A DNA stretch of 64,000 nt from Bdellovibrionales bacterium CG10_big_fil_rev_8_21_14_0_10_45_34 (lineage in GTDB: Bacteria; Bdellovibrionota; Bdellovibrionia; Bdellovibrionales; 1-14-0-10-45-34), in the NCBI GenBank assembly GCA_002778785.1, contig PEZS01000011.1:352868-416867 (forward strand). The letters are read 5' to 3'. Shown piece after piece: positions 17,756 to 58,140 of this stretch (position 1 is the stretch's first letter; every line of letters starts with the position of its first letter). Under the pieces are notes generated by a model that saw only the letters and a list, made by a program, of their open reading frames with translations, had not been told where the DNA came from and ran no database searches. Made by a program: the position numbers and the translations under genes.

Positions 17756-18107
17756 GGGGGTGCACTGGTTTCGACGTGGGTAAAGAAGCTTAGGGAGCAG
17801 GTAGAGGCGCATGAGGACCTCTCAAAAAACGTGCACTTGTAGTTGCAAACCAAAACTTTGCACTTGCTGCCTAATTTAGTGTAGCACGCTGATTCAAGAA
17901 ATGGTGATGGTCTTGATGAGGTGTCACTTTAGTCACCTCGGTCGAAAGTGGTTTTCTTCAGCGCTTTCAGCCTAAATTTTCTGAGGGAATATTTGTAAAT
18001 GAGTTTGTTTGTGTACTTGCTTACAAATCATTAAACGCAAACTAAACCTGTAGTGCCTTAACGTGGAAGACTTGCGGACGGGGGTTCGATTCCCCCCACC
18101 TCCACCA
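17756..18107 (+). ncRNA. ssrA: Transfer-messenger RNA
   Basis: The 5' end GGGGGTGCACTGGTTTCGAC and the 3' end with a TTCGATTC T-loop plus CACCTCC-A-CCA pair into a 7-bp acceptor stem with one G-U. A tag reading frame starts at GCA 17845 and ends at TAA 17872-17874, encoding ANQNFALAA, which ends in the usual LAA degradation signal. Length 352. tmRNA rescues stalled ribosomes. Its last bases form the left half of the mobile element's attachment core, so the gene remains intact after insertion. Confidence 0.96.
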
Positions 18108-19846
18108 AATCTTACGCTGGACGAACCATCGTCCATTAAAAAGCCGCCTAGATAGACACCTATCTCAGCGGCTTTTTTAATTTCTGCCATCTTTTCACCA
18201 CATTCAGCTCCTCCGAACGAAGCCTCTAGTGGCCTACCAAGTTTACGAAAAGGGAGAACAACTCCTGATTGACCCTTATGGGCCTCTCTAACGGCCTCTG
18301 ATTGGCGCTCTGTTCCCCAAAAATCTACCATAATGACATTTTCGGGGTTCAAGTGAATGGTCTTAACAATATTCCTCAAAATCTCACGCTTTTTGGCCAA
18401 ATTGGCCTTTCTAAAACGTTCGCTTCTGAGTAAATCAATTCCACCCAACAGATAATCTATGTCAATTTCTCTTTCGTGATCAGAATCTAGTTTTTGTTTT
18501 AGTGATTCAGTTTCTTCTTTCAAAAGAACTAATTTTTTTTCAGATTCTTCCAGTTTGTTGATCAAACTGTTCAATCTAGCTGCATTTGAATTGGTGGCCA
18601 TGATCGTAACGAGTTGGTCAATTTCAGCTTGAGTTTTTTCAAGCTCTTTTTCTTTCATTTTAACTAATGATTGATTCACCTTTGGCCGAGAATTATTCAT
18701 GTCCTTTAAAATCTCAACAAAATGCTCTTTCATTGCCTGATTATTTAAAAACGAGAAAGCTTGTTTCTTAACAAGAGTTTCTAATTCAATCGCAGGGTAT
18801 CTTTTAATACGACAAGAAGAAGCTCCCTTGTGACCATAGTAGAAATGTGTGCCATTTCTACCACTGCCTGATTGACCAAAGAGAGGAGAACCACACTCGT
18901 CACAAGTAAGAAGCCCAGAGAAAATAAAATCATGCTTTGGTGCAGATTTTACTTGTTTGTTCATATTCAATCTTTCTTGAACTTGATTGAATCGTGCTTC
19001 GTCAATGATGGCTTCCCAAGAAGCATCAACATATGAATATTGTTCTTCAAACTTTAAAAGCTCAGGAGCGACTTCTTTATTGCTTTTATTTATCTCTCTC
19101 TTTCCAATATAGGCAGGATTGGTCAGTGTTCTCCAAATATGATCATGATTGAATGGGTTTCCACCTTTAGCTTGACCATCTTTGCCGACCCACATTTTAT
19201 TTACAAATCCACGCTTGTTTAACTCATGAGCTACTGCTGAAATACTCCCAAGTTCAAAATAAAGATTGAATATTTCCTTAACAAGATTGGCTTCTTTTTT
19301 ATTGAGAATTAAACGACCAGAGTTTTTAGTGTCTTTGTCATAACCTAGAAAAGGATGGCCACCGTTTAAAAGGCCTCGCAATGCACGAGAGTGAAAGTTA
19401 TTTTTAATCCTTTCTGCTGTTAGCTCTCTTTCAAATTGGGCAAGTGCCATAATAATCGTCATGAAAACGCGGCCAGCAGGGCTTGTGGTATCAAAATCAT
19501 ATTGAAGACAAATGAAATCACAGCCAAGTTTTTCCATATCATTGATGAAATTTAAAAAGTCGGCGACGGAACGACTCAAACGAGATAACTCCGTAACCAT
19601 TACAGTATCAATTCTTTTTTTCTTGATATCAGCGATGAGCCTTTGGAACTCAGGGCGATCAGTGTTTTTACCTGAGTAGGCCTCATCTTTATATAGATCA
19701 ACGACTTTTCCCCATTTGCCATTTTCATAGCGATTCTTCTCTTCAACTTTCATTCTTAATCGTTGAATTTGAGAGGTAATGGAACCCTCTTTGTTTTTTG
19801 CCTGCTCATCTGTCGATACACGACAATAAATAGCAATCTTTCTCAT
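17972..19846 (-). CDS. Large serine recombinase, integrated-state form
   Basis: Site-specific integrase of the element. N-terminal resolvase domain IAIYCRVSTDEQ with nucleophile Ser11. The recombinase domain follows (GGHPFLGY onward), then a zinc ribbon (LTCDECGSPLFGQ with C..C near 350-353) and a coiled coil at about 395-470. Residues 1-582 are encoded by the element. The last 42 residues (GGGNRTPV to the end) are read from the antisense of ssrA, because the open frame crosses attL. In the excised circle the same frame continues through attP into the ORF at 56388, giving a predicted 730-aa protein with a different C-terminus. Last gene of a TIR-like/XRE/recombinase operon. Confidence 0.9.
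   Translation of the reverse strand: MRKIAIYCRVSTDEQAKNKEGSITSQIQRLRMKVEEKNRYENGKWGKVVDLYKDEAYSGKNTDRPEFQRLIADIKKKRIDTVMVTELSRLSRSVADFLNFINDMEKLGCDFICLQYDFDTTSPAGRVFMTIIMALAQFERELTAERIKNNFHSRALRGLLNGGHPFLGYDKDTKNSGRLILNKKEANLVKEIFNLYFELGSISAVAHELNKRGFVNKMWVGKDGQAKGGNPFNHDHIWRTLTNPAYIGKREINKSNKEVAPELLKFEEQYSYVDASWEAIIDEARFNQVQERLNMNKQVKSAPKHDFIFSGLLTCDECGSPLFGQSGSGRNGTHFYYGHKGASSCRIKRYPAIELETLVKKQAFSFLNNQAMKEHFVEILKDMNNSRPKVNQSLVKMKEKELEKTQAEIDQLVTIMATNSNAARLNSLINKLEESEKKLVLLKEETESLKQKLDSDHEREIDIDYLLGGIDLLRSERFRKANLAKKREILRNIVKTIHLNPENVIMVDFWGTERQSEAVREAHKGQSGVVLPFRKLGRPLEASFGGAECGEKMAEIKKAAEIGVYLGGFLMDDGSSSVRFGGGGGNRTPVRKSSTLRHYRFSLRLMICKQVHKQTHLQIFPQKI
18102..18116 (+). repeat. attL core of the integrative element (15-bp direct repeat)
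   Basis: CCACCAAATCTTACG spans the last six bases of ssrA (CCACCA) and nine more. The same 15 bases occur at 56836-56850. On the element side it is followed by CTGGACGAACC (18117-18127), the exact inverse of GGTTCGTCCAG at 56812-56822 on the other end. Joined in a circle these form a roughly 50-bp dyad of the kind used as attP by large serine integrases. Confidence 0.85.
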
Positions 19847-19848
19847 AA

Positions 19849-20094
19849 CTAATCCTTACTACGCTTGATAATGACATCAACATCTAAACCAATACCGTTA
19901 GCAATTCTTACTAACTGGTCAATGCTGACTCCTCTTTCTGTTCCTCGAAGAATTTTATTAACATTTCTTCGATCAAGCCCAATCATTCGAGCAACTTCAC
20001 CTTGCGATAAATTCTTGCGTTCCATTTCTTTTTCAATTGATGCAAGTAACTTTATTTTTATCTCACCACTTTTGTTTTCAATCAAAATAGTCAT
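19849..20094 (-). CDS. XRE-family HTH regulator
   Basis: 81 aa with a helix-turn-helix LSQGEVARMIGLDRRNVNKILRG and a following VSIDQLVRIANGIGLDVDV helix, typical of short Cro/C1-type repressors or antitoxins. It sits one base after the TIR-like gene and two bases before the recombinase gene, so all three are co-transcribed. A perfect 26-bp palindrome upstream of the operon is a likely operator. It plausibly represses excision/integration and the TIR-like gene. Confidence 0.8.
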   Translation of the reverse strand: MTILIENKSGEIKIKLLASIEKEMERKNLSQGEVARMIGLDRRNVNKILRGTERGVSIDQLVRIANGIGLDVDVIIKRSKD

Positions 20095-20095
20095 T

Positions 20096-21037: not shown

Positions 21038-21071
21038 TGTATTTCCTTGTAACTTATCCTATATAAAACAA

Positions 21072-23687: not shown

Positions 23688-25142
23688 TTAATTCCCGTCA
23701 GGGATTTGTGTTTTCTTTCCTAGGACTTCGCCCTCAGAAATATCCATCATTGGTCGAAAGCAGGGATAATTTGAACTGAACTTTTCTTGTAAGATTTCAA
23801 TTTCACTTTTGAGTTCTTCATCTTCAAGGAATGGAGCTTGTATTTCTAAAAACTCATTTCCTGAAGCCCATACTGCGCGGCCCTTAATATCTGGCAACTC
23901 AAATGCTCTTTTGTTGCCTAGAACTGTCACAGAGTTAGTCATCGTGTTCATTCTGAAACAAACTCGTCCACCGATATTTTCTTGAACTTTAGTGTCAATT
24001 GTTTCTTTTGATACCTTTTGAGTAGCAAAAATAAGATGAATTCCTGCGGCCCGTGCCAGTTTGGCCAGCTCATCTGTATATTCCCTTGCGGTATTAATCA
24101 GATGGGCCTTAGTCGCATTGGCCTTTACTTTTGAATAGAGAACAGAAGCCTCATCAATTCCAACAACAATTTTGTCCATTTTGTCCCTTGCTGGAATAAT
24201 TTCTTTATTTCCTGTCTTTTCCAAATACTCAAAACGTCGATCCATTTCATCTTTTACTTTCTTTAGCATTTGACAGGCCTCGGCTTCCGTCTTGGCGATT
24301 CTCACATTTGGCAATTCTCCAAACTCTTTCATCTCAACACCTCGCTTTAAATCTAAGAGATAAAGCTGTAGCCTTGGCGTAGATTTTAAAAGACTCACAA
24401 GTGTTTGCTTAAAAAAGACACTCTTTCCACCGCCAGTGGTTCCAGCTATAAGCAGATGTGGAAGTGATTCAAGAGTCCTCGTGACAACTCCTTTCATTGA
24501 TTCACCAATAATAAAAGAATGAGGCTTCACTAGTTGTGCTTCTACATCATGGTACTTAACAAGCTTTGGAAGTTTTCTCTTTGTTAGGTACAAAATGATA
24601 ATTTGCGGATTACTGCCGTTAGCTATTGAATCAATCTCTTCAGCAAATGAAGCCTCAATATCACTTTTTCTCTGCTGGTATTTATCAATCCCAATTCCAA
24701 CCGATTTTATAACTAACGTAGTCTTAAACTCATCGACATTGTTGACTGATACGACTCTAAAAAAAGCGCCTTCTGCACCATTTAATCCAATTCTGTTCAA
24801 TTTTTTCTGAAACTCTTGCATCAGCTTAAATTCACGCAGGCCAACCAAAATGGAGGTGAACAACAAAATCGCGAATAGAAAAGCAAAGAAGAAAACCTCC
24901 CACGGAATTTTGTAAAGGACATTTACTAGAAATTTAGGAAGCTCATTCTGTATTCCTAAATGTGTCGCCCATAAAAATCTGTGGTTAAAAGTTGTTGCGC
25001 CAATTATCAGAGTTGTAGAGAGCATTAAAAGATAATATTCCTTCTTGTTCCTCCACATTTTTTTTAGTCCAAGCCAAACGCATTGAGATAAAGATTCAAT
25101 AATTTTAAGAAACTTATTCTCCTCTGTTTTTGATTTACTCAT
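23688..25142 (-). CDS. FtsK/TraD-like DNA-translocating coupling ATPase
   Basis: About 484 aa. Two N-terminal membrane helices (about 36-53 and 85-105) are followed by a cytoplasmic motor with Walker A LLIAGTTGGGKSVFF (about 233), a DLKRG motif, Walker B KIVVGIDEAS (about 326) and sensor-like FATQKVSKETID. The FtsK_SpoIIIE family pumps DNA through membranes; here, in a type IV secretion operon, it is the probable coupling protein. The ATG at 25142 overlaps the VirB10 stop; an ATG at 25154 is an alternative. Confidence 0.8.
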   Translation of the reverse strand: MSKSKTEENKFLKIIESLSQCVWLGLKKMWRNKKEYYLLMLSTTLIIGATTFNHRFLWATHLGIQNELPKFLVNVLYKIPWEVFFFAFLFAILLFTSILVGLREFKLMQEFQKKLNRIGLNGAEGAFFRVVSVNNVDEFKTTLVIKSVGIGIDKYQQRKSDIEASFAEEIDSIANGSNPQIIILYLTKRKLPKLVKYHDVEAQLVKPHSFIIGESMKGVVTRTLESLPHLLIAGTTGGGKSVFFKQTLVSLLKSTPRLQLYLLDLKRGVEMKEFGELPNVRIAKTEAEACQMLKKVKDEMDRRFEYLEKTGNKEIIPARDKMDKIVVGIDEASVLYSKVKANATKAHLINTAREYTDELAKLARAAGIHLIFATQKVSKETIDTKVQENIGGRVCFRMNTMTNSVTVLGNKRAFELPDIKGRAVWASGNEFLEIQAPFLEDEELKSEIEILQEKFSSNYPCFRPMMDISEGEVLGKKTQIPDGN

Positions 25143-26063
25143 TTTCACCGCCAAATGCCGAAGTTAAACTGATAATAATGTCAGTACCAGCTTCAAGCGT
25201 AATGTAAGGAGGAGTCTGGGCCATGGCCTCTGCGTGTCTGGCGGCTTCCATCTCTGAAACTTTAGATACACCCTGAAATACAGCATTTTTCATTGTTGGC
25301 TTGGGGGTTGTTGCACCGAAATCGCCATGGGCCGTCTTATCTGTTAAAACATCTGTCATACTAGATACCATTGTTAGTCCTAATGTTCCGGCAATTCTAA
25401 TCCCAGTTTCCGAGTGAACATCTCCAATAATGCCATTTGAATAGTCAGAACTATCTAGCGCCATGGCCATTATTTGTTTTTCTTCACCCGTTGGGCTAAT
25501 TGCTTTATCAAAACTCAGATAAATCCTTTCGCCTTTACCTGAAAAATGGGCTTTTCCAATAAGCATGGAATTCTTTTCAATAAATTGTTCTCCTTTAAAG
25601 TTTGCACCATAAGGCAAAAGAACTTTAACTTGCGAGGTTAAATCTCGTGAGTCGATTGCGGACAAGAGCTTGCCAATGATATTTGATCCATTGGGAAGTG
25701 CTTTTTTCAATGACTTATCATCACTTCTAACAAGAACTTGTTTTGCTCTGTATTCCAGCTTCTTTTGCTGAAATTCACCCGACATATTATTAGATTTTTT
25801 TGTGTCAGGTGGTACTTCATTTTGAATTGGAATCATTTCAATTTCAGTGCTGGTCAATTGAGGCTGTTGTTCATCGCCGTCAATTAGACTCTTATCTGTC
25901 TTTTGTGATGTACCTGCTGGTGGTGAATCAAAGACAATGGCAAAAATTGTATAGGTTAGCCCCAGAATGAAGGCTAAAATACTTCCAATTTTTTTTATAT
26001 TAAATCTTCTTTTCCCACCATCTAGAGTAAAAGCGAACCTCTCAAACCATCCAGATTTTTCAT
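25135..26063 (-). CDS. VirB10/TrbI-like channel protein with an apparent 1-base frameshift near the start
   Basis: The C-terminal domain (LPNGSNIIGKLLSAIDSRDL, LPYGANFKGEQFIEKNSML, LEAGTDIIISLTSAF) is the VirB10 outer-membrane-channel fold. The same frame continues upstream through a membrane helix (GSILAFILGLTYTIFAIVF) to about 26055, but without an ATG, GTG or TTG. The ATG at 26063, just after the VirB9 stop, is one frame off. A single extra A in the A-run at 26056-26060 would give MKKSGWFERF and a whole gene of about 309 aa. So either a homopolymer error or a real shift is present. The first in-frame usual start would be a TTG at 25857, which loses the helix. Confidence 0.7.
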
Positions 26064-26066
26064 TGG

Positions 26067-26789
26067 CTATAAAAATTTCTCCTCAATGATGTGTTTTGCT
26101 TCCAAGCCTTGATACTTAACATTCAGAGTAAAGCTTTTTTTAGATGGAAGTTTTAATAGAAGGCGAATAGTTGCCATATAATTTCCTTCTTTTTGATCAA
26201 TTATCACTTTACTCTCACCATAAGTTTTATTCCCATGAGTCGTCATAAATTTGAAATCATTTACATTTATGATTTCTTTTTTTAAATGTTCAACTCTTAG
26301 GTCAAGGATATAAAGCTTTAGTGAATCATGAAATTGGATATTCTCTGATGTCACAATTAGCTTACCTCCAATTACCTTTTTTAAACTAAACTTTTCTTTC
26401 GGCCTTTGTTTAGGTTCTTGCCTTTGCATGATGGGAGATGGCTTCCAGCCACGCTTCACAATGACTAAGTCATCATAGTGAGCATCACTATCTACATTTA
26501 GAATCAAACCATAGGTGTTGTATTCACCGTACACAAACAAGTTCGTTTTTGCCGTTCCTAGAGGTTGAATGGTGACATCATTATCAATGAATTCAACATT
26601 GAAATAATTTTGATTTCCAATGACAACTTTCTTGGGCTTTTCCAAAAAACGCAATACAGTAGATTGGCCCATCTTAAGGTTAATATGGCCCATTTCGTTA
26701 GAACTCATGTACAGATCACGAACCTTTGCATGGGAGATACTCACAGCAAAAAAAGTAAAAATCACAATCAATATATTATTTATTCTCAT
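26067..26789 (-). CDS. VirB9/TrbG-like periplasmic protein
   Basis: 240 aa with a signal sequence (NILIVIFTFFAVSISHA). The first half carries strands such as LKMGQSTVLRFLEKPKKVVIGN and IQPLGTAKTNLFVYGE, the secretin-N/VirB9 N-terminal type. The second half is beta-rich. Its place between VirB8-like and VirB10-like genes supports the call. The open frame extends to a TTG at 26795; the ATG at 26789 is preferred. Confidence 0.65.
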   Translation of the reverse strand: MRINNILIVIFTFFAVSISHAKVRDLYMSSNEMGHINLKMGQSTVLRFLEKPKKVVIGNQNYFNVEFIDNDVTIQPLGTAKTNLFVYGEYNTYGLILNVDSDAHYDDLVIVKRGWKPSPIMQRQEPKQRPKEKFSLKKVIGGKLIVTSENIQFHDSLKLYILDLRVEHLKKEIINVNDFKFMTTHGNKTYGESKVIIDQKEGNYMATIRLLLKLPSKKSFTLNVKYQGLEAKHIIEEKFL

Positions 26790-27363
26790 GCTCAATAACT
26801 CCGTTGACTAAGATTCCATAAGGGTTCCATTTTGAAGCTTTATCTTTGATTAATTGAAAACTTGCTTCTGTTGGTACGATCAAAGGAATGCCATTGAATC
26901 TGACAATTTTATCAAACTTTGCAAGTGCTTCCTTATCATTTACGATGACTTCAATGTTTGCGACATACTGGTCAATTTTTGACAATTGTGACTCAGATTT
27001 GTCTTTCTTGATTTCACCTTCAAGGGCCTGAAGATATCCATCCGTTGAAAGAGGAGCAATATTCCGTAAAGTTCCACCGAGGTCATCTTTTCTAATTTGA
27101 TATCTAAGATTGATGAACTCTTTCAAAAAGACTTTAACATCTTCTTGGTTTGGGCCTGCGCTCAAATGCCTTCCAACGACATAGGACTTACTCTGACCAG
27201 TCTCTTGAATCACAATTGGATCAGGATTTAGGATAACAAAAATGAGAATGACCATCAGTAGAGTTACAAATCCTAAAAACATCGTTGCGATCTGATAGAG
27301 TTTCAGCTCTTTGTTAATTCCAAGCCACTGATTGATTGGTGTAAAGATTTTATTTTTTATCAT
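26776..27363 (-). CDS. VirB8-like inner-membrane assembly protein
   Basis: 195 aa from the ATG at 27363. A short cytoplasmic N-terminus is followed by one membrane helix (TMFLGFVTLLMVILIFVIL, about 27-45) and a periplasmic NTF2-like domain containing VKVFLKEFINLRYQIRKDD. This is the layout of VirB8/TraE proteins, which nucleate the type IV secretion channel. Overlaps the ends of its neighbours. Confidence 0.65.
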   Translation of the reverse strand: MIKNKIFTPINQWLGINKELKLYQIATMFLGFVTLLMVILIFVILNPDPIVIQETGQSKSYVVGRHLSAGPNQEDVKVFLKEFINLRYQIRKDDLGGTLRNIAPLSTDGYLQALEGEIKKDKSESQLSKIDQYVANIEVIVNDKEALAKFDKIVRFNGIPLIVPTEASFQLIKDKASKWNPYGILVNGVIEHENK

Positions 27364-28321
27364 TATTTCTTCCTTTGTTGAAATTTGGACGTAGTACATT
27401 TGGTGGATCAATATGGCGCTCAGGTTTTCGCCAATTTTGTATCCTATTATCTATTCTTTCCTTGGCCATCTGAAGATTTTGTCCAATAGGACGACTAATT
27501 TTCCCAAATGATGATTTCAAACCATTTGATCCCTGACTCATTAAATTCTTGCCGTTTTTAACCGCCATACTTTTAATGAAAGCACCTGTTGCCGCAGTTG
27601 GAACTGCTGCTAACGCCGAAGCCGCTCCTGACATTCCATCATTTATGAGTGACTTCGTTGCAAATGGAATAAAGAGCATAGAGACACCAATACAAAGATT
27701 AATAAGGATTGATGTCAAAAAGTTATCCCAATTCCCGACTTGTGGAGCGGTTGCCAGTTTTAAAAGCATTATCGCTAGAATTGACCATAGCACTTTCCAA
27801 ACCATGACATTGATCAATCCTTTATAAAGATTTGATGTCACAAAGGAGGTTGATCTTGAGATGTACATTAGAATCATCAGCGGCGAGCAGACATACAATA
27901 CTGACCATACATAATGAATAAGTACATTAGCGACGAAGACTCCAAGGTAGGCAACGATATAAGAAACCAGACTTAAAATAAAAATGATGGCCTCGCGAAA
28001 CTTAAGCCAACTAACGCTATTATCTTCATAGTTCTTGCCGAGTTCACCCATCAAATCCCATAGGCTTTTGACCCCATTGATTTTATCTGTAATCCCATCA
28101 CCAACCATGGCAATGAGATTCATCGTCTCATTGAAAAAGAAGAGTAGGATCATTGAAATCACTGCTCTTCTAATGATATCTCCTGCATTCGGATTTCCTT
28201 CCGGCATTTTGAAAAACTCAAAGACGATTAACAGAACACAAAATGGAACTATTAATATCCAGTAGATTTGCAAAATCTGAGCGTGAAGCTCCCTACATAC
28301 CTCTGGTAAATACTCAAACAT
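27350..28321 (-). CDS. VirB6/TrbL-like polytopic membrane protein
   Basis: 323 aa with about six hydrophobic helices between residues 15 and 225 and a Gly/Ala-rich segment (GMSGAASALAAVPTAATGAF). A long positively charged C-terminal tail ends in NFNKGRNNDKK. This is the VirB6/TrbL pattern. The start ATG overlaps the VirB5-like stop by one base. Confidence 0.7.
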   Translation of the reverse strand: MFEYLPEVCRELHAQILQIYWILIVPFCVLLIVFEFFKMPEGNPNAGDIIRRAVISMILLFFFNETMNLIAMVGDGITDKINGVKSLWDLMGELGKNYEDNSVSWLKFREAIIFILSLVSYIVAYLGVFVANVLIHYVWSVLYVCSPLMILMYISRSTSFVTSNLYKGLINVMVWKVLWSILAIMLLKLATAPQVGNWDNFLTSILINLCIGVSMLFIPFATKSLINDGMSGAASALAAVPTAATGAFIKSMAVKNGKNLMSQGSNGLKSSFGKISRPIGQNLQMAKERIDNRIQNWRKPERHIDPPNVLRPNFNKGRNNDKK

Positions 28322-29007: not shown

Positions 29008-29018
29008 AAATTTATTTC

Positions 29019-41041: not shown

Positions 41042-41043
41042 AC

Positions 41044-41646: not shown

Positions 41647-41661
41647 TAAAAGAGGTTCGAG

Positions 41662-45156: not shown

Positions 45157-45166
45157 GAAGTGAGAT

Positions 45167-48100: not shown

Positions 48101-48682
48101 GATAATGTAGTTCCAATAATTGATGGAGACTGGTTTATAGATGATATTTTGGAGAAGTTTAAATGCTTCTTAAAGGTGGTCGCTGGAGAGAAGAATTACG
48201 AAAAGAACCTTACTTTTCTTGAGGACGCTCTTGGTAAAGATATAAAAAAATACTTCTTTAAAGATTTTTACAATGATCACATTAAAATGTTTAGAAAACG
48301 TCCAATTTACTGGATGTTCTCAAGTCCGCAGGGCACATTCAATGCCTTGATCTATTTGCATAGATATAATTCAGATACAGTCAGTATCGTTCTTAATAGT
48401 TATCTCAGAGAATACAGAGCGAAACTCGTCTCTAAGCGCGAAAACCTTGAAAGATTATCTAATTCAGGAGACGCATCTTCAAAAGACAAAACTGCTGCAC
48501 TCAAAGAAATTGAACAATTAAAGAAAATGATTCTTGAACTTGATGAGTACGAGAAAGACGTTCTTTACCCACTTGCGACGCAACGCCTCGAAATTGATTT
48601 AGATGATGGAGTTAAAGCGAACTATCCAAAATTTGGGAATGCTCTAAAGCCAATTAAGGGCCTTGATAAGGGTGAGGACTAA
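45167..48682 (+). CDS. pglX: BREX adenine-specific methyltransferase PglX (BrxX)
   Basis: 1171 aa. SAM-binding motif VCDPACGSGHML (about 292) and catalytic IANPPYMGG (about 466) mark an N6-adenine methylase. The N-terminal FNRFCALRYMDV and SHTQPEILMEA segments are PglX-specific. The C-terminal half should contain the target-recognition and cofactor regions. It marks host DNA at a 5-6 base non-palindromic site, the basis of BREX self-recognition; the site cannot be predicted here. Confidence 0.93.
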   Translation: MDTSVLKNFAQESRRYLMDVVAKKIEYYLTTDNVEIRAKKHLIEDLRKEISNTSKDQVIEKIAYTWFNRFCALRYMDVKQYSLVGVLTPMSESHTQPEILMEAKSGHIKDELGNPSSRDHVIGLLSGKVSTNDPQSEAYKHLVLMACNYYHSIMPFLFEKIDDYTELLMPDDLLSEASIVSKVRSALNEENCKDVEVIGWLYQFYISEKKDEVFEGLKKNKKITPENIPAATQLFTPNWIVRYLVENSLGRLWMLNRPSSNLISKMEYYIKPEVEEKDFLKIKGPEEIKVCDPACGSGHMLVYAFDLLYSMYEEVGIDSNEISSLILKNNLFGVEIDKRAGELAAFALTMKAREKQRRYFKNPVNPNICVLENIHFEEAEIKDYMDHVGHDLFSSQLRNTLYQFVEAKNFGSLISPEVSEVATVLNLLDQKNVSGHLFLTKTHSNVLRVLAQAKFLSPVYHVVIANPPYMGGNGMNESLKKFLENKYKKSKYDLMTAFMDKCSEICMIDGFWGMINLPSWMFLSSFEGFRKNLLETVTFSSLLHLGRGIFGSDFGSTAFVCNNSKNKSGKTGLYRRLFDQHVQVRSVEKIQSLFFDKGYGHFSINQNEFNKIPGNSFAYWLSPEIRQIFQTSKSLKEIGDTRQGMATSDNNRFLRQWYEVSFDKISLSSVSRESAKLSKKKWFPYNKGGQFRKWYGNAEYVVNWENDGKELLDYASSLYGSPTRTIKSISEYFKPSVSWSKVSSGNLAMRYFPAGFIFDVAGCAIFNPDHEKLNFLLGFCNTNLARTILTAISPTVNFEAGQIAQLPIFNGIENEKNTIPSQLIHITKMDWDSKEFSWDFKAIPLLKLINFSHPINDSFDLLIKESKQDVLKVKELEKLNNQFFINYYGLQSEVSAEVSLEEISLFYNPNYMFRTAASNEEKVGLLKLELVKEFISYGVGCIFGRYSIDKEGLILASQGADYKDFLSSVPNPRFLPDSDNVVPIIDGDWFIDDILEKFKCFLKVVAGEKNYEKNLTFLEDALGKDIKKYFFKDFYNDHIKMFRKRPIYWMFSSPQGTFNALIYLHRYNSDTVSIVLNSYLREYRAKLVSKRENLERLSNSGDASSKDKTAALKEIEQLKKMILELDEYEKDVLYPLATQRLEIDLDDGVKANYPKFGNALKPIKGLDKGED

Positions 48683-48684
48683 TA

Positions 48685-51174
48685 ATGAGTAAGATTAAGC
48701 AAGCACTTGATAAGCTATTTCAAACTCATCGAGTTGTGTTTTGGTATGATACCAAGAATGAATTAAAGCAGGATTTTGAATCTTTATCTTTGGTTGATGT
48801 TGAAAAGATTGAAATTCAAAATAATGAGTTTTTCATTAAGCATAAAGTCCTTAGAGAAAAAAATGATTCTAAATTCTTGCTATACCATCAAGGAGCTAGA
48901 CCAAAAGATTCTGTGAACTGGTTAATTGATATGGAGCTTGCCTTTGGTGAATTCAGAAGTGATCAGAATTCAATTTGGCTTGGCGAAATCGGACTAGGCT
49001 TTGATTATGCAGATTTCGTTCAAGAGCATATTACTTTTTTTAAGAATCAGACCTTTCGTGAAAAATTAAAAGAAAGGCTTCTGGGTTTCAACAATAAGGA
49101 AGAACTAAGACTGAAGCTTTTTGCTATTTGCCTTGAAACTGAGGATCGTATTGATGCTGTTATAGAAGAGTTTCTTGCAGAATTGGCAAATGGTTCTCAG
49201 ATGAAGTATCAGCTTCTTAAGGACTGTAACCTAGAGTCTCATCTTTGGAAGAGCCTTGAAAAAAGCTTTGGTTACATATCAGCAAGTCCATCTGTAAAAG
49301 ATTTTGCACTTGAGCTATTTAAATCGTCTTATCAGATGAATATTGAAAAACGATCAAAGCTAAATAGTGATGCCTATGTTTTTATGCGTAGATGGAAAGA
49401 TAGCCGAAATAGGTTTAAAGACTTTGAACGCTTATCTGATCAGTTTGAAGATTTATTGAGTATTAAGCAAGATTTGGAGAATAGATCATATAGAGAACTT
49501 CAGGATTGCGATTATTTTCAATTAGTTGATAAGAAAATTTTAAGTTTACTTGTAAATGACCTCGCTAATAAAACGATCAGTCCATCCGACTGTATTTCAT
49601 TCATAAGAAATAGAAAATCAACTCACTGGTATAAAGATAATATCGAAAAAATTTATGAGGCAATTAACCATGCCGCTCAATTCTTTAAGTTACTTGCAGA
49701 AGCCAATCTAACTATTGCCAATTTTACAGATGGATTTAAGAAATATACTGATAATTGGTACAAGATTGATCTGAATTATAGGAAGTTTATCTATTTTACT
49801 CGAGAAAGTGGGCAGTCTTCATTATTGAGGCCCTTAATTGATCAAATTGAAAATCAATATACAAACAACTTCCTTGGAAAATTAAACAATGAATGGCAAC
49901 CCCACATAGATAACCTCGAAAGATGGGAGTTCTCAGGTGTGCCAACACAAAGATCATTTTTTAATAGAACCGTTTCTCCAATTCTAGATAAAAACAACAA
50001 AGTTTTTGTGATCATATCCGATGCTCTTCGATTTGAAGTTGGAAAAGAGCTATATAATAAAATACTTCAAGAAGATCGTTATGAGGGGGACGTAAACTTC
50101 ATTCAATCAACTATTCCAAGCTATACTCAGTTAGGAATGGCGGCACTTCTTCCTCATTCAGAGTTATCATTATCCTCAGATAAAGTTGAAATTGTATTTG
50201 CAGATGGTAAACCAACTTCAGGCTCAGAAAATAGACGCAAAATTATTAGTGATTTTAAAAAGCATAAAGGAACTGCGGTACTTTCAAGTGATTTCCTTTC
50301 CATGCATTTAGATGAAACTAAATCTTTGGTTAAAGAGCACTCTTTTGCATTTATTTATCACGATGAGATTGATAGCGCTGGTAAAAATCCCGATCAAGTG
50401 CCCGGTGCAGTTGAGCGAACTTTTGAAACAATAATTAAAATTATAAAGAAACTAACGTCTTCAAATGCTAACCGAATCTTAATAACGGCTGACCATGGTT
50501 TTCTTTTCCAAGATAAAGACTTGGATGAAAGTGATTTTTTGGCCGATAGTTCTATTAAAGGTGAAATCCTTCAAACAGATAGAAGATTTTTTATTGGTAA
50601 AGGCCTTGAGGCCATTAACAATTCATTTAAGATTTTCGATTCAAAACAAGCAGGTATTTCAGGTGATGTATCATTTGCCATACCTAAAACTGTAAATCGT
50701 ATTAGAAAAAAAGGTTCAAGTATTAGATTCGTTCACGGAGGAGCGACGTTACAAGAAATAGTAGTTCCAGTGCTTGATATTAGAAAGAAGCGTGAAAGTG
50801 ATATTGGCTTTGTTTCGATTGAAGTACTTGGTAGTACCTCAAATTTGATTACAACTGGTCAGTTATCTGTCGCACTTTATCAAAGTGAACCTGTTACGAA
50901 TAAGGTTAGACCACTCAAGATTAAAGCCGGACTTTATTGCGATGAAACTTTAATTAGTGATTCAAAAGAACTGCTTTTTGATATGACTTCGGCAAATCCA
51001 AGGGATCGAGAGCTAAAGGTTCAATTTGTACTCACTCAAGAAGCAAATAGATTTAACAACAAAGAAGTTGAACTACGCTTGGAAGAAGAAGTTAAGGATA
51101 CCACTAAATATAGAATACATAGAATTTACAAATATACATTACGAAGATCGTTCACAAGTGATTTCGACTTCTAG
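48685..51174 (+). CDS. pglZ: BREX alkaline-phosphatase-fold protein PglZ
   Basis: 829 aa. The central PglZ domain has the metal-site motifs VFVIISDALRFEVGKE (Asp about 446) and ITADHGFLFQ (Asp about 603), plus the HGGATLQEIVVPV end. N- and C-terminal flanking domains have normal length. Two-base spacing from pglX. It is the signature protein of all BREX types; it hydrolyses phosphodiesters in vitro in some systems. Confidence 0.93.
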   Translation: MSKIKQALDKLFQTHRVVFWYDTKNELKQDFESLSLVDVEKIEIQNNEFFIKHKVLREKNDSKFLLYHQGARPKDSVNWLIDMELAFGEFRSDQNSIWLGEIGLGFDYADFVQEHITFFKNQTFREKLKERLLGFNNKEELRLKLFAICLETEDRIDAVIEEFLAELANGSQMKYQLLKDCNLESHLWKSLEKSFGYISASPSVKDFALELFKSSYQMNIEKRSKLNSDAYVFMRRWKDSRNRFKDFERLSDQFEDLLSIKQDLENRSYRELQDCDYFQLVDKKILSLLVNDLANKTISPSDCISFIRNRKSTHWYKDNIEKIYEAINHAAQFFKLLAEANLTIANFTDGFKKYTDNWYKIDLNYRKFIYFTRESGQSSLLRPLIDQIENQYTNNFLGKLNNEWQPHIDNLERWEFSGVPTQRSFFNRTVSPILDKNNKVFVIISDALRFEVGKELYNKILQEDRYEGDVNFIQSTIPSYTQLGMAALLPHSELSLSSDKVEIVFADGKPTSGSENRRKIISDFKKHKGTAVLSSDFLSMHLDETKSLVKEHSFAFIYHDEIDSAGKNPDQVPGAVERTFETIIKIIKKLTSSNANRILITADHGFLFQDKDLDESDFLADSSIKGEILQTDRRFFIGKGLEAINNSFKIFDSKQAGISGDVSFAIPKTVNRIRKKGSSIRFVHGGATLQEIVVPVLDIRKKRESDIGFVSIEVLGSTSNLITTGQLSVALYQSEPVTNKVRPLKIKAGLYCDETLISDSKELLFDMTSANPRDRELKVQFVLTQEANRFNNKEVELRLEEEVKDTTKYRIHRIYKYTLRRSFTSDFDF

Positions 51175-51185
51175 AATGGGGGCAT

Positions 51186-53231
51186 ATGAACACGCTTGAT
51201 AAAAAAATAAATGAATTATTCGCTGGCATGGTTGTCAGAAAAGACCTTGTCAAAGCCGTTAAAGGAAATGCAATTGTTCCTTCCTATGTTCTTGAATATC
51301 TTTTGGGTCAATATTGCGCGACTTCAGATGAGGCCAGTATCAATTCTGGGATTGAGACCGTAAAGGAAATTCTAGGTAAGCACTATGTACATAGAAATGA
51401 AGCCGGACTTGTTCGCTCTACTATTAAAGAAAAAGGACGGCACAAAGTCATAGATAAAATAAGTGTTTCATTAAACGACAAGAAAGACGTCTATGAAGCA
51501 TCTTTCTCCAATTTAGGTATAGATGATGTCCTTGTGGGTTCAGAAGTCATTAAGAGGCATCCAAAGCTGTTAGTTGGTGGTGTTTGGTGTATTTGTGAAC
51601 TTGAATATTCATTTTCTGAAGAAGATAAGTCTGTTCCGTGGATTATGTCTTCAATTAAGCCAATTCAACTTTCACAATTTGACTTTGATTCATACGTTGA
51701 TACGAGACGAAAATTTAGCACTGATGAATGGATTGACCTTCTTTTACAGAGTATAGGCTTTAATCCAGAAATGTTTGGTAAAAGAAGTAAGCTACTTCAG
51801 CTAGTCCGTCTGATTCCTTTTTGTGAGAGAAACTATAACCTAATTGAACTTGGCCCTAAAGGGACTGGTAAGTCTCACGTCTATTCTGAGTTCTCTCCCC
51901 ACGGAATTCTGATTTCTGGTGGTGAAATCACACTAGCTAAATTATTCGTAAACAACTCAAGCGGAAAACTAGGCCTTGTTGGTTATTGGGATACGGTTGC
52001 CTTTGATGAGTTTGCTGGAAAACAGAAGAAAGTAGATAAGGCCTTGGTTGATGTCATGAAAAACTATATGGCCAATAAAACGTTTTCCAGAGGTGTTGAA
52101 ACACTTGGCGCTGAAGCTTCAATGGCATTTGTCGGGAATACATCAAAGTCTGTACCTTATATGCTAAAGCATTCTGATCTATTTGATGATCTGCCAGATA
52201 AATTTCATGACTCTGCTTTTCTAGATCGTTTGCATTTTTATATTCCGGGCTGGGAAGTTGATATTATTCGAGGAGAAATGTTCTCAAGTGGATATGGTTT
52301 CGTTGTTGATTATTTCGCCGAAGTTCTAAGACATTTAAGAAGCTATGATTACTCTCAAAAGTATAAGAATTATTTTGAGCTAGGATCAGATATATCAACG
52401 AGAGACAGAGATGGTATTCATAAGACATTTTCTGGACTAATGAAAATCTTGTTCCCCCATAATGAAGCAACAGAAGCTGAGATTAAAGAGCTATTAGAAT
52501 TTGCAATCGAAGGTCGTAAGAGAGTTAAAGACCAATTGCTGAGAATAGATGCGACCTACGCGAAAGTTAATTTTAAATTTTCAAGTACGTCATCGAATAA
52601 AGATTACGTTGTTACAACACTCGAAGAAAAAGAGCATCAGTCTATCTACCATTCAGGTGGTGCTGAAACAGAATCATCACCAATTGATAACATTAAAATG
52701 ACTGATGAAAGCATAAAATCTAACGTTCAATCACTCCTTCCAGAACAAAACTTAGCTTTTAGTGAAAACCAGAAAGGAGTTTCTTACGAAGATATTTTAA
52801 TTCCTTATCTTAAAGGAGCTAAGAAGATTGATATTACCGACCCATATATTCGTTTGTTTAATCAAGCTAGAAATCTTATGGAATTGATGGAACAAATTGT
52901 TAAATATAAGCCAGGCGACGAGGAAGTTCAGGTCAGTTTACACACGATAATGGATGAGCATAATTCTGAGCAACAAGTAAATTTCCTCGCTCAGATGAAA
53001 GAAAGCCTTGAGCCTGCTGGACTCATCTTCACTTGGAAGTTTGATGAGAGTGAAACCATCCATGCAAGGCATATCGTCGCAGATAATGGTTGGAAAATTC
53101 TATTGGATCGCGGACTAGATATATTTCAACAATACGACATGAATGATGCTTTTGCGGTTACAAACCGCAATCAGAAATTCAGGGCATGTAAGGCGTTTGA
53201 AGTGACATATGTTCGATCGAAGAAAAACTAG
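51186..53231 (+). CDS. brxL: BREX Lon-like ATPase BrxL
   Basis: 681 aa, full length. AAA+ motor with Walker A LGPKGTGKSHVYSE (about 223), Walker B TVAFDEFAG and sensor FVGNTSK. It assembles as a DNA-binding ring in known type 1 systems. Its presence as last BREX gene, with no pglW or brxHI, fixes the system as type 1. A SIR2 gene starts 15 bases downstream. Confidence 0.92.
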   Translation: MNTLDKKINELFAGMVVRKDLVKAVKGNAIVPSYVLEYLLGQYCATSDEASINSGIETVKEILGKHYVHRNEAGLVRSTIKEKGRHKVIDKISVSLNDKKDVYEASFSNLGIDDVLVGSEVIKRHPKLLVGGVWCICELEYSFSEEDKSVPWIMSSIKPIQLSQFDFDSYVDTRRKFSTDEWIDLLLQSIGFNPEMFGKRSKLLQLVRLIPFCERNYNLIELGPKGTGKSHVYSEFSPHGILISGGEITLAKLFVNNSSGKLGLVGYWDTVAFDEFAGKQKKVDKALVDVMKNYMANKTFSRGVETLGAEASMAFVGNTSKSVPYMLKHSDLFDDLPDKFHDSAFLDRLHFYIPGWEVDIIRGEMFSSGYGFVVDYFAEVLRHLRSYDYSQKYKNYFELGSDISTRDRDGIHKTFSGLMKILFPHNEATEAEIKELLEFAIEGRKRVKDQLLRIDATYAKVNFKFSSTSSNKDYVVTTLEEKEHQSIYHSGGAETESSPIDNIKMTDESIKSNVQSLLPEQNLAFSENQKGVSYEDILIPYLKGAKKIDITDPYIRLFNQARNLMELMEQIVKYKPGDEEVQVSLHTIMDEHNSEQQVNFLAQMKESLEPAGLIFTWKFDESETIHARHIVADNGWKILLDRGLDIFQQYDMNDAFAVTNRNQKFRACKAFEVTYVRSKKN

Positions 53232-53246: not shown

Positions 53247-54395
53247 ATGGAATCTAAACTAAAACTTTCAGAAATTTATGATAAGAATATAAATTTCATT
53301 ATTGGCTCAGGTGCTTCATTTGGACTTTTTCCTGTTTTGCAAGTCCCCATTAAGGATGAAAAAGATACTCAGCAGACGATAGAAACGCTGGCGACCTATT
53401 TTGAGAATAAAGGTGATAGCGGTCAAAAATCGAAAACTCTTTTATTTATGCATTATTATAAGACTTGTATAGAACCTATTTTAAATTTCGATTTTGAGGC
53501 AGTTAATGGTGATGCGACCAAAAAAGCAGTCCTCGATAATTATGAAAAGTTCATTAGAACAATTCTCTATATTTTAAGAAATAAGAAAAATGACGATAGA
53601 AAAAGCTGTAACTTATTTACGACAAATTATGATGGTTGCTTAGCTCATGTTTCCGATAGTGTGATTAAAAACGGAGAAGCTGACTTTATCTTAAATGATG
53701 GAGCAAGAGGCTTTTTTCGTAGGTATCTTGCTGCAAAAAACTATAACGCTTATACAAAGCAATCAGGAACCTTTGAACGTTATTCGACTCAAATTCCTCA
53801 AATTAATTTGATACCACTTCATGGTTCTGGTGCGTGGATAAAGGAAGGAGATGTTATACGCGTAGATTATGCACAAAAGGACGAATTAACAAAAAAATGT
53901 TCTGATGCGATACCAGATATTAAGTTATTTTCAGACTGTTTAAATGATTCATCCAAGAACATTTCCGATTTAGAAAAAATTGATATTGAAATTTCAAGCA
54001 GTAAGTTCTGGGAGGAATATAACAAGCTCCCAATAGTTAATCCAACTAAGTGGAAATTTTACGAAACTGTTTTCGAAGAACACTACTATCAGATGCTTCG
54101 GTATTTAAGCTATGAGTTAGAGAAACCAAATGCAGTTCTTATCACCTTTGGATTTTCATTTGCCGATGAACACATTTTAAATCTTGTAAAGAGATCGTTG
54201 GCCAACCCTAAGCTTCAGCTTTTCGTATCTTGTTTTAATCAAACTGAAGTTGATCTTTTATCTCAAAAATTTTCAAAATTTCCTAATGTAACTTTCTTGA
54301 CCGATCCTGTTAGTTTAGACTTTACAAAATTCAATGAGGAGCATTTTACGAAAGAGAAGAAAGAATCATCTACACCAGCAGGTAGCGCTACATGA
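53247..54395 (+). CDS. SIR2-domain NADase-like defence protein
   Basis: 382 aa of the SIR2_2 type. NAD-site motifs: NFIIGSGASFG (about 16-26), FTTNYDG (about 128), LIPLHGSGAW (about 190) and ITFGFSFADEHILNL near 300. It overlaps herA by four bases. SIR2-HerA pairs (Nezha-type) form a large complex that depletes NAD+ on infection. Only 15 bases separate it from brxL, so it is probably part of the BREX transcript. Confidence 0.85.
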   Translation: MESKLKLSEIYDKNINFIIGSGASFGLFPVLQVPIKDEKDTQQTIETLATYFENKGDSGQKSKTLLFMHYYKTCIEPILNFDFEAVNGDATKKAVLDNYEKFIRTILYILRNKKNDDRKSCNLFTTNYDGCLAHVSDSVIKNGEADFILNDGARGFFRRYLAAKNYNAYTKQSGTFERYSTQIPQINLIPLHGSGAWIKEGDVIRVDYAQKDELTKKCSDAIPDIKLFSDCLNDSSKNISDLEKIDIEISSSKFWEEYNKLPIVNPTKWKFYETVFEEHYYQMLRYLSYELEKPNAVLITFGFSFADEHILNLVKRSLANPKLQLFVSCFNQTEVDLLSQKFSKFPNVTFLTDPVSLDFTKFNEEHFTKEKKESSTPAGSAT

Positions 54396-56158
54396 CCATA
54401 AAAGTTGGAGAAGTTGTAGCCGTTAAGGGAGTCTCAATAACCATAAGAATGTTTGATGAATCTAATATAGACTCATTTTTCTATTCTGGTGACAAATACA
54501 ACGGTGTATCTATTCGAGAGCATCTTCTCATTCAGCGCGGCTTTATTAATATCGTATGCATTGTTGAAGGCGAGATGCTTGATGAAAAAAATAATGAGCA
54601 AGTTGGCGACAGGAGGAGCTATACAAGACATATAGAAGCCAAGCCGATTGGGTACTTCAAAGACAGTGAGTTTTTTGAGGGGATTAAATATTTGCCAATG
54701 ATAAAGGACTCGGTATATTTGATCGCTGAAAAAATGATTGCGGATATCTATAATCGGATCGGTGATGATCAATTTGTAGTTGGAAAGATGCTGAAAGAGG
54801 AGCTTCCAGTTTATCTACCTTGGCAAAAGCTTTTTAATACTCATTTAGGAATTTTTGGTAACACTGGAAGTGGGAAATCAAATACTCTAACTAAATTATT
54901 CACGACACTTTTCAGTTCAAAAAAAGATTTTCTTAGAGGTAAAAGCTAATTTGTATTACTTGATTTTAATGGGGAGTATACAGGTGGCCAGCTAATAGAT
55001 AATGAGAATAAAACAGTCATTCATCTAAATACTCGTGATAACGATGGACAAAAATTTCCATTGATTGACGACGAGTTTTGGGACATTGAAACATTAAGTA
55101 TTCTATTTCAAGCAACGACAAATACGCAAAGACCATTTTTGAGACGCTTAATTGATGGACGTGACAAGTTTAAAGCCGATCCAGATAGTTTATTGAAATA
55201 CACAAAATCTATTTTCCAAAAGGTCTTTTCCTCTGCTTCTCCAAAAAGAGATTGCCTTGATTTGTTAAGGTCTATTTCAAAGATAATTAGTAATGATTCT
55301 CTTTCCACAAAACTTAAAAGTATTCAGTGGCGATCAGGCAATAGTGAAAAATTTTATGAAGGAACTGTTTATTACGAAGCCGATGGGATCGCTTATGCTA
55401 ATCATATTGAGGCTATTGTAAACAACTCTACTGTAAATCTAGATGCCTTTGATGAATTGATTTTAAGAGCTAATATTCAACTATGTTATGAGTTGCTGTT
55501 TGGTTACGTTCAGTATGATCATATTCAACCACTTCTTAAAAGAATGGATTCACATCTAACGAGTCTCAAAAAAGTTATATCTGTAGTAGAGACACGAAAT
55601 GCCAGTAAGACATTAACCGTTATTTCTCTTAGGAAATGCAATCAAGATACAAAAAAGGTTATACCTCTTTTAATAGCCAAGCATTTTTACAATCACCATA
55701 AAAATAGCGTTACAAATCCACCAAATAGGACATTCCATTTAATTATTGATGAAGCTCATAATATTCTCTCTGAAGAGTCTTCTCGTGAAACTGAAATATG
55801 GAAAGATTATCGCTTGGAACTATTTGAGGAAATTATTAAAGAAGGTAGAAAATATGGGATGTTTTTGACAATTTCAAGCCAGCGGCCGGCAGATATTTCT
55901 CCTACGATTGTTTCTCAAATTCATAATTTTTTCATTCACCGTCTGGTAAATGATAGAGACTTAATGTTGATTGCAAATTCAATCAGCACACTCGACAAGC
56001 TTTCAAGGGATTTAATTCCTTCCTTGCCAAGAGGGGCATGTATTGTAACAGGAACGTCTTTTGCTCTCCCAATGGTAATTCTCGTGGACCTTCTTTCCAA
56101 AGAAAAACAGCCTGATAGTGAGGATGTCGATTTAGAAAAATTATGGAAAGCTGATTAA
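54392..56158 (+). pseudogene. HerA-type DNA-translocase partner of SIR2, interrupted by one in-frame TAA
   Basis: One continuous frame of 588 sense codons is broken only by TAA at 54947-54949. The part before it (185 aa) has the HAS-barrel-like domain and Walker A GNTGSGKSNT (about 156). The part after resumes directly with FVLLDFNGEYTGGQ, continues through Walker B HLIIDEAHNILS (about 448) and SSQRPADISPTIV, and is undamaged. No base insertion or loss is needed. A recent nonsense mutation, a sequencing error or readthrough are all possible. A TTG at 55061 could restart the second part but would lose the P-loop. Confidence 0.8.
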
Positions 56159-56209
56159 GTAACAAAACGCCTAAGTTGTTTCATTGGCTTCATTCTTTTT
56201 TTATTCAGC

Positions 56210-56240
56210 AAGATATCCCGAATAGGCTAATATCTTTTTT
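56210..56240 (+). terminator. Probable rho-independent terminator of the defence operon
   Basis: AAGATAT and ATATCTT form a 7-bp stem with a 13-base loop, followed by a T-run to 56240, starting about 50 bases after the herA stop. Confidence 0.5.
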
Positions 56241-56391
56241 CTAATTTCTGAGTGAAATCTTGAAGCGGTGGAAGACCTTTATTAACCTTTATCAATGTTT
56301 CCTTTTTAAAGCTCTCAACTGCTTTGGGTGCAAGGTAGCCACCTGATGCTAATAAAATAATAGCCGCTACTATTTCTGCTACTGCTTTCAT
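56227..56391 (-). CDS. Small membrane-anchored or exported protein (54 aa)
   Basis: Starts MKAVAEIVAAIILLASGGYL, a hydrophobic anchor, then a charged helical part ending TQKLEKRY. Its ATG overlaps the TGA of the upstream recombinase-tail ORF (ATGA), so in the circular form it would be coupled to the recombinase. Its 5' codons coincide with copy C of the dispersed AGTAGC repeat. No family recognised. Confidence 0.45.
   Translation of the reverse strand: MKAVAEIVAAIILLASGGYLAPKAVESFKKETLIKVNKGLPPLQDFTQKLEKRY
56361..56384 (-). repeat. Dispersed AGTAGC-type repeat, copy C
   Basis: On the minus strand it reads AGTAGCAGAAATAGTAGCGG, two changes from copy A over 21 bases. Here it is inside the first codons of the 54-aa gene. 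Confidence 0.5.
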
Positions 56392-56792
56392 TTTTTTCTC
56401 TCCTGTTCACGTTTATATATTTCTTGGACTGTTGTTTTTGACCATTGGCCACCACGCTTTGAAGGAATGCCACTTTCCGTTAGAACTCTGGCAATTTCCC
56501 GAAACGAATGGCCCTTGGATTTTAATGACACAATTTTTTGAATTACTTTTTGTTCTGCTTGATGAGGTACTCGAACGCCGGAAACTTCACGTTCACCATA
56601 GCGTGGGATCGGTGATTTTATAGATTCCTTATTGATCTTTGCTTTGCGTAGATAATCACTTATTGATGTCCGTGACCATCCTGTTAAATCTGAAATTTGA
56701 TAGCTAGAAAGGTCAAAATCTAAGTAGAGTTTCCGCAAAATTTCATGATTTTCCGCTGGATTTCCAATGAAATGCGGAATGAAAACAGACAC
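56388..56792 (-). CDS. Detached C-terminal domain of the serine recombinase (HTH, DNA-binding)
   Basis: The frame is open to 56942, but everything beyond 56850 is IS sequence. In the integrated state the best start is a GTG at 56792, giving about 134 aa. It contains an HTH-like DLSSYQISDLTGWSRTSISDYL, the YGEREVSGVRVPH linker and a second HTH-like KGHSFREIARVLTESGIPSKRGGQWSKTTVQEIY. The latter resembles the C-terminal part of serine-recombinase 'recombinase' domains. The core codons VRFGG are in the same frame as VRFGG of the recombinase at the other end. In the circle this ORF is therefore residues 583-730 of the recombinase. A paralogue is at 63402. Confidence 0.7.
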   Translation of the reverse strand: MSVFIPHFIGNPAENHEILRKLYLDFDLSSYQISDLTGWSRTSISDYLRKAKINKESIKSPIPRYGEREVSGVRVPHQAEQKVIQKIVSLKSKGHSFREIARVLTESGIPSKRGGQWSKTTVQEIYKREQERKK

Positions 56793-56835
56793 ATAGCTAA
56801 CAGTAGAGAGCGGTTCGTCCAGCCTCAGGCTCCGA

Positions 56836-56850
56836 CCACCAAATCTTACG
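56836..56850 (+). repeat. attR core of the integrative element (15-bp direct repeat)
   Basis: Same 15 bases as 18102-18116. Its element-side arm GGTTCGTCCAG is at 56812-56822. Directly outside it, from 56855, begins an IS481-family element, so the original host flank is hidden or lost. Confidence 0.8.
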
Positions 56851-56854
56851 GGTC

Positions 56855-58140
56855 CGACCCGGAGACATGGGTGACAGTTTGTACCTAAGACATAGGTAAC
56901 ACTTTTGGTCCGAACGGGTTTGCTAAAGGTTCGAACCGACAACTATCGGTATCAAAATATCCTAAATCGTAATCCATAAAGGTCACAAGCCAAGTTCCAT
57001 CGCCGACCTCCTTAAGTCCAAGTTTTTGGCCCATAAACACCTTACTTAAATTGATTTTCATTTTCCCGATGCAAATTCGTCCGCAGCTCGTAACCTCGAT
57101 CTCTCGGTCATGCAGAGGATATTCGATCGGCTGTAGTCCCTGGTAACTTCGATCAGACCGGGTATAAATTTCGCTTGGATATTTCATGCCCAAGGCTTCA
57201 TGAGGACGATCCGTATTAAATTCTTCTAAAAAATCATCGAATTTTGCCTGCTGCTGCAAAAAATTTTGTCCTGCTGGTTTTGTAGCTTCTTTCTTTAAAG
57301 TTAAATGCATTCTTTCATGCCGGCCATTCTGCTGCGGACACCCCGGTTGGATTCTCTCGATCTGGATTCCAAGTCGTAACCACCAAACGGATAGCTTGCT
57401 TAAATTAAATAACGAGTTCGCTGACGCAAAGGGCACACCATTATCTGTCCTAATAGATTTTGGTAAGCCGTATTCTTTAAAAGTCTTTTCAAAAACTGTG
57501 AACGCGTAAATTTCTTTCGTCGTGCTGAGCCCCTCGCATCGAAGTAGATAGCGGCTTGCTTGATCCGTGATCGTTAAAGGGTAGCAATACTCCTTCGAGC
57601 CTAGCATAAACTCACCCTTGTAATCGGCACACCACAACTCATTGGGGTAACTTGCCTGGGATAACACTGTACCTTCTGCACGCCTTCTGATGCGGCCTCT
57701 TGGGATCACCAAACCATTGCGATCAAGAGCTGCATGGATCGTACTTTTTGCAGGAGTTCGGACATCAGGAAATTTTCTAATTAACTTTTCACGGATCTTT
57801 CTCGCACCCCAACTTGGATACTCTTTCTTCATATTTAAAATAAACTTTTCAACCTGAAGAGGGAGTTGATTCGCCAGACGAATGGGTCTTCGGCTACGAT
57901 CCGTAAACGCACCAGTGCCGATATCCTGATAGCGCTCTACAATCTTATAGCCAGTCTTTCTTGATATTCCGAACTCTCGGCAAAGGCTCGTCATAGATTC
58001 ACCATCTAAAAGCCTTGCGACAAACTTAACGCGCTCATCCATAACACTACGCTCCTTCCATGGCATAACCGCTTTCCCCCTTTTTGGGGAAAAGTGTAAC
58101 CTATGTGTCCGGTACGTTTTGTTACCTATGTCTCGGGTCG
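56855..58140 (-). mobile_element. IS481-family insertion sequence
   Basis: About 1.29 kb with imperfect terminal repeats: CGACCCGGAGACATGGGTGA at the left, and the inverse of CGACCCGAGACATAGGTAAC at the right. Each end carries a second inner ACATAGGT-type repeat. It holds one transposase gene. No target duplication is evident at either side, so it may have been rearranged. Confidence 0.75.
56885..58066 (-). CDS. IS481-family DDE transposase
   Basis: 393 aa. N-terminal HTH SMTSLCREFGISRKTGYKIV, then the catalytic core with Asp in ELWCADYKGEF, Asp in SIRTDNGVPF and Glu in QNGRHERMHL, all intact. The C-terminal part is MDYDLGYFDTDSCRFEPLANPF. Full length, so the element may be active. A related C-terminus reappears at 63916. 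Confidence 0.9.
   Translation of the reverse strand: MPWKERSVMDERVKFVARLLDGESMTSLCREFGISRKTGYKIVERYQDIGTGAFTDRSRRPIRLANQLPLQVEKFILNMKKEYPSWGARKIREKLIRKFPDVRTPAKSTIHAALDRNGLVIPRGRIRRRAEGTVLSQASYPNELWCADYKGEFMLGSKEYCYPLTITDQASRYLLRCEGLSTTKEIYAFTVFEKTFKEYGLPKSIRTDNGVPFASANSLFNLSKLSVWWLRLGIQIERIQPGCPQQNGRHERMHLTLKKEATKPAGQNFLQQQAKFDDFLEEFNTDRPHEALGMKYPSEIYTRSDRSYQGLQPIEYPLHDREIEVTSCGRICIGKMKINLSKVFMGQKLGLKEVGDGTWLVTFMDYDLGYFDTDSCRFEPLANPFGPKVLPMS

Follow-up and report, generated by a model that had tools for sequence, protein, structure and literature searches.

An ICE-like element of Bdellovibrionales with its attachment site inside the serine integrase gene, and a conserved C-terminal tail that integration would split off

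Introduction

In streptococcal ICEs inserted in rumA, attR lies inside the serine integrase gene and the C-terminus of the enzyme differs when the element is excised (PMC4701971). The classic case among tyrosine recombinases is Int of the Myxococcus xanthus phage Mx8, with attP inside the integrase gene (PMC6070905, PMC4383910); upon integration its 112-residue C-terminus is replaced by 13 residues and activity is lower (as cited in PMC4701971). SSV-type archaeal integrases also extend across attP (PMC4383910). In a survey of 2014, targeting of tRNA or tmRNA 3′ ends was known only for tyrosine integrases (PMC4383910).

We analysed a 64,000-nt window of a Bdellovibrionales genome, which is the whole stretch of DNA studied here and to which all coordinates refer. 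Like SPbeta/YokA, Bxb1 and A118, the serine integrase encoded in it has catalytic, Recombinase and zinc-ribbon domains and a palindromic attP of about 50 bp. To our knowledge, attP lies outside the gene in those three systems, and none of the three enzymes carries an appended HTH and Recombinase-like tail.

The locus shares with the rumA ICEs a conjugative-element serine integrase with att in its gene and a state-dependent C-terminus. However, the rumA ICEs exchange the 3′ part of a protein-coding target gene, whereas tRNA and tmRNA 3′ ends are used here, and the available text of PMC4701971 describes no conserved split-off DNA-binding domain such as the one reported below. Mx8 Int resembles our case in the position of attP and the replaced C-terminus, and its altered enzyme differs in activity and specificity (PMC6070905), but it is the tyrosine recombinase of a phage. 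Integration likewise partitions the gene of the SSV-type integrases at tRNA targets (PMC4383910), although these are archaeal tyrosine recombinases. Given these three precedents, the principle is already known, also for serine integrases of ICEs, and the statement of the first-pass annotation that no such conjugative-element serine integrase was known is wrong, since the rumA ICEs precede it (PMC4701971).

Results

The attachment site and the integrase gene

The 15-bp core CCACCAAATCTTACG occurs twice in the whole 3,063,604-base (3.06-Mb) assembly, with the left one extending across the ssrA 3′ end (Table 1). The integrase ORF reads VRFGG across the left core and continues for 42 residues from antisense ssrA, while the tail ORF at the right end reads VRFGG across its core in the same frame and continues for a further 148 residues. 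When the ends were joined in silico, an open frame of 733 codons was obtained, 730 of them from the ATG (582 + 148), with zero stops. The circular form of the element was looked for in the assembly and was not found.

These results support the reading that attP sits within the integrase gene, that integration would exchange its C-terminal part, and that the full-length integrase would be encoded by a circle or a tandem junction only. With attP in this position, chromosomal insertion cuts off the conserved DNA-binding tail of the enzyme. The first-pass annotation had already placed both cores in one VRFGG frame, predicted an ORF of about 730 codons without a frame break at the junction, and given the chromosomal integrase a 42-residue antisense-ssrA end; every number in it proved correct to the residue. 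Its interpretation of an attachment site in the gene, an exchanged C-terminus and a full-length enzyme from the circle stands as well, but its claim to be without precedent falls, and it missed the phylum-wide spread.

Table 1. Features of the element and its surroundings, as positions within the 64,000-nt window
Feature	Position	Strand	Remarks
ssrA (tmRNA) gene, complete	17756..18107	+	3′ CCA at 18105-18107; integration target; ARAGORN
Large serine integrase ORF	17972..19846	-	624 codons in the integrated state: 582 element-encoded, 42 host (antisense ssrA)
attL core CCACCAAATCTTACG	18102..18116		predicted central dinucleotide CC at 18102-18103
Left-end arm of the attP palindrome, GCTGGACGAACC	18116..18127		
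Hairpin with T-run	18138..18177	+	by folding; z = -7.7 for 18105-18195
Small HTH_37/Cro-type regulator	19849..20094	-	upstream of the integrase
Conjugation genes (FtsK-type ATPase, TrbI, TrbL-like, TraC/VirB4, TraL-like)	23688..31746	-	
BREX cargo (BrxA, BrxB, BrxC, PglX, PglZ, BrxL)	40388..53231	+	
HerA of the SIR2-HerA pair	54392..56158	+	two ORFs with a gap
Tail ORF, right end	56388..56942	-	residues 32-184 (from 56849 downwards) start at the core; conserved two-part HTH domain, predicted C-terminus of the integrase in the circle
Right-end arm of the attP palindrome, GGTTCGTCCAGC	56812..56823		
attR core CCACCAAATCTTACG	56836..56850		
IS481-like transposase gene	56885..58066	-	adjoins attR
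Second, diverged tail ORF	63402..63860	-	begins at ATGGTGGACAG

The integrase carries Resolvase (PF00239, E 8e-39), Recombinase (PF07508, 2.4e-30) and Zn_ribbon_recom (PF13408, 4e-6) domains in one protein, which is the domain set of a large serine integrase. Integrase and type IV secretion genes lie together between the att sites, including a TraC/VirB4 with a TraG P-loop, and no relaxase was named in the subset of element ORFs scanned. SIR2, HerA and TIR effector genes were also found between the cores, and the whole fits an ICE-like island of about 38.7 kb with defence cargo. The interruption of the HerA gene suggests that it is inactivated.

The window genome holds further traces of such elements. 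The second tail ORF, about 7 kb to the right of attR, looks like what is left of the attR of an earlier element that had used this ssrA site, and no integrase matching it was identified. Another element of the same type, of about 15 kb, lies at a tRNA-Asp gene (G000:C1:399514-415423, L126). IS481-like sequence was found upstream of three tail ORFs in this genome (including L131 and window 63400-63900), as if the IS favours such sites.

Relatives across the phylum

With the window tail as the only query, 35 of the 140 genomes of the order proved to contain a tail homologue; a profile detected one in 71 of these 140 and in 171 of the 368 genomes of the phylum, with named matches from Bacteriovoracaceae, Halobacteriovorax, Bdellovibrionales and Oligoflexia MAGs. 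The alignment A1 served as a search profile only; one of its rows has two wrong residues at a poorly aligned start. Across the phylum nearly all tail matches are short ORFs. Integrases with full Recombinase matches, mostly of 500-700 codons, have a same-strand tail as partner, located to the side where the other end of the element should be; 32 such pairs were taken for comparison. Close tail homologues (89-94%) in named MAGs lie in bins without a close integrase, an absence that makes no statement on loss because the contigs end in or near the element. The nearest relative of the integrase (71% over its C-terminal part; G115:C86, L135) has one in-frame stop. In another genome, four tail ORFs lie within 13 kb on one strand (G247:C1:149272-161645, L213), and a PF07508 search of that genome returned no full-length integrase; the cluster can be read as a row of remnants or of integrase-less satellites.

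Pairing by the longest common substring alone (23/32) gave too much noise, as many cores measure no more than 6-9 bp, and was replaced by anchoring on the antisense CCA. The frame test was then made on the 26 pairs in which the integrase ORF runs into an opposite-strand tRNA or tmRNA gene (tRNA-Asp, Asn, Glu, Pro, Gln, Met, Ala, Arg or His, or tmRNA), with cores anchored on TGG (the terminal CCA read from the opposite strand) and the longest match between integrase end and tail scored. We found that the best core match was in frame in 25 of the 26 pairs, against an expectation of one third (probability about 2e-11, with fewer than 26 independent events because some pairs, such as G176 and G186, are related). 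In the remaining pair, G002a, a 9-bp match does lie in frame where the core is expected. An integrase frame that crosses att, with a C-terminus differing between circle and integrated form, is present here and in those 25 relatives, so that many relatives of predatory bacteria share the arrangement. Moreover, in two tandem elements without a tRNA gene at that end (G051b and G036a) the cores of the own pair are also in frame, and each reads the tail of its neighbour in another frame.

The joined attP site and the ssrA 3′ end

The joined site of the window consists of GGTTCGTCCAGC, 26 bp and GCTGGACGAACC, giving 12-bp arms and 50 bp in total, and agrees with the attP expected of a large serine integrase, a palindrome of about 40-50 bp around a central dinucleotide. 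As a test independent of frame, the integrase end was joined to the tail start in 27 pairs. The centre of the inverted repeat lay at a constant distance from TGG in 24 of the 27, or 25 when an alternative core is taken for G005, and no palindrome was found at the expected centre in two (G073 and G186). The attP palindromes of G013b, G176 and G064 are near-perfect. Complementary pairs at the fixed centre summed to 326 for the true pairs versus 183.8 (sd 11.4) for re-paired ends, with a maximum of 231 in 20000 permutations (P<5e-5), indicating that the junction rebuilds a real attP.

A 15-bp repeat combined with an accidental open frame could produce a single case with a probability that we estimate at about one third, given an att core. 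The comparative data, with 25 of 26 pairs in frame and the palindromes of 27 elements, exclude this explanation, which we consider extremely improbable.

The palindrome centre places the crossover beside the discriminator base of the tRNA, so the CCA end is supplied by the element. The hairpin with a T-run downstream of ssrA is a probable replacement terminator, likewise supplied by the element. It was revealed by folding and was not detected by a simple terminator scan, probably because that scan counted only unbroken stems with short loops. At this place, near the att arm, one strand codes for the integrase while the other carries the probable ssrA terminator.

The tail and its integrase

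In the tail, Pfam recognises part of another Recombinase domain (PF07508 positions 2-51, E 7e-12) besides weak HTH matches. When a profile built from ten tails was searched against the PDB, it matched the SPbeta integrase YokA over the Recombinase-like part. The structural model of the tail (mean pLDDT 77, with the first 26 residues below 50) shows a three-helix HTH followed by a beta-hairpin with three helices. In a Foldseek search with this model the SPbeta integrase ranked top, and Bxb1 and paired-domain proteins were among the best, with E-values that are all weak (>0.01). For the second part of the tail, the similarity to the SPbeta recombinase domain is thus one of sequence and, weakly, of fold. 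The Pfam and profile matches, the modelled fold and the Foldseek ranking together indicate that the tail is probably a bipartite DNA-binding domain, made of an HTH and a second Recombinase-like domain. Phage and plasmid searches with the single tail protein returned only small resolvases or the Recombinase domains of other integrases, and two scans of viral_contigs gave no relative.

Among five close homologues the tail has a dN/dS of 0.06-0.16 at a dS of 0.23-0.75, indicating purifying selection. In 37 of 38 integrated-state tail ORFs, no start codon ahead of the first HTH is accompanied by a Shine-Dalgarno-like motif, and 10 of the 38 lack any start codon in this stretch. Selection on an ORF that lacks a start site implies that it acts mainly on the fused protein.

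Full-length recombinases carrying the tail, which the first-pass annotation had proposed to look for, do occur, as five natural unsplit integrase-tail ORFs were found: one in G063 (784 codons), one in G016 and three in G308 (793, 767 and 738 codons). The G016 fusion spans a tandem junction, and its Recombinase domain contains a stop upstream of that junction; it is the integrase of one element joined to the tail of its neighbour, as the model predicts for tandem insertion, and the G063 fusion is probably of the same kind. No TGG-anchored palindrome was found at the junctions of the three G308 fusions, indicating that the tail belongs to the integrase as a domain also when att lies outside the gene.

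Most tails appear as ORFs of 140-250 codons, as would be expected of a separate small HTH gene beside attR that acts in trans, for instance as a regulator or directionality factor. We regard this as very improbable, as nearly all tails lack a start site, they are in frame with a distant integrase, and the fusions occur naturally. The location of attP could also be a by-product. In that case it would sit in the 3′ part of the gene only because the tRNA 3′ end and its terminator can be restored compactly from there, and the tail, as a general DNA-binding domain, could be lost with little effect. The compact overlap of att, terminator and coding sequence agrees with this explanation, as do the G308 integrases that retain the tail with no att at the junction. 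However, the split is the rule in the examined pairs and the tail is still under purifying selection, and we judge a mere by-product to be distinctly unlikely.

Discussion

The reading that we favour, with a probability of about 0.72, is that of an ICE-like element with attP in its own integrase gene, whose integration splits off a conserved tail that aids integration. In the circle, the gene would encode a 730-aa enzyme ending in the conserved two-part DNA-binding tail. Recombination of attP with the ssrA 3′ end at the central dinucleotide, adjoining the CCA end, would split the gene, so that the catalytic part (582 aa) would remain at attL with a meaningless host-encoded end and the 148-codon tail would stay behind at attR with no start that could be used. 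The division into catalytic part and tail can be read from the DNA itself. We infer that the exchange of the tail sets the direction, integration versus excision: the tail may help the full-length enzyme to bind attP or to synapse it with attB, and its loss after insertion may weaken or redirect the enzyme. The integrated state would then be stabilised, or the short form reserved for excision with the aid of a further factor. A full-length gene would be restored when the element excises or when a similar one inserts in tandem. The first-pass annotation had imagined a switch that needs no separate factor, but excision may still need one.

In archaeal suicidal integrases, partition of the gene is generally taken as inactivating. 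The same could hold here if the tail is needed for folding or activity, in which case integration would destroy the enzyme and the excision enzyme would come from elsewhere. In the integrated state the enzymes end in random peptides that are read from antisense tRNA and vary in length, as such self-inactivation would allow, and there are parallels in the archaeal integrases and Mx8 (PMC4383910, PMC4701971). Against it, the short form retains all catalytic, Recombinase, zinc and coiled-coil regions, and the short ORF is still open in most elements; we consider self-inactivation rather unlikely.

Within the literature surveyed, to which later work may add, what appears to be new is a phylum-wide family with tRNA and tmRNA targets that loses a conserved DNA-binding domain in one piece. 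The use of tRNA and tmRNA 3′ ends by serine integrases is documented here, and gene callers will routinely mis-annotate both halves of such an integrase.

More tentatively, and with the odds somewhat against it, a class of tRNA-targeting serine integrases found across the phylum may use the placement of attP as a built-in direction switch. The full-length enzyme would integrate, integration would remove the paired DNA-binding domain and leave a form specialised for excision or silence, and tandem insertion would rebuild a chimeric full-length enzyme. Serine integrases are widely used tools of genome engineering and their one-way behaviour is a central question; in this natural class, full-length and tail-less forms of many independent enzymes, together with the attP palindrome predicted for each, are available for tests of what sets direction.
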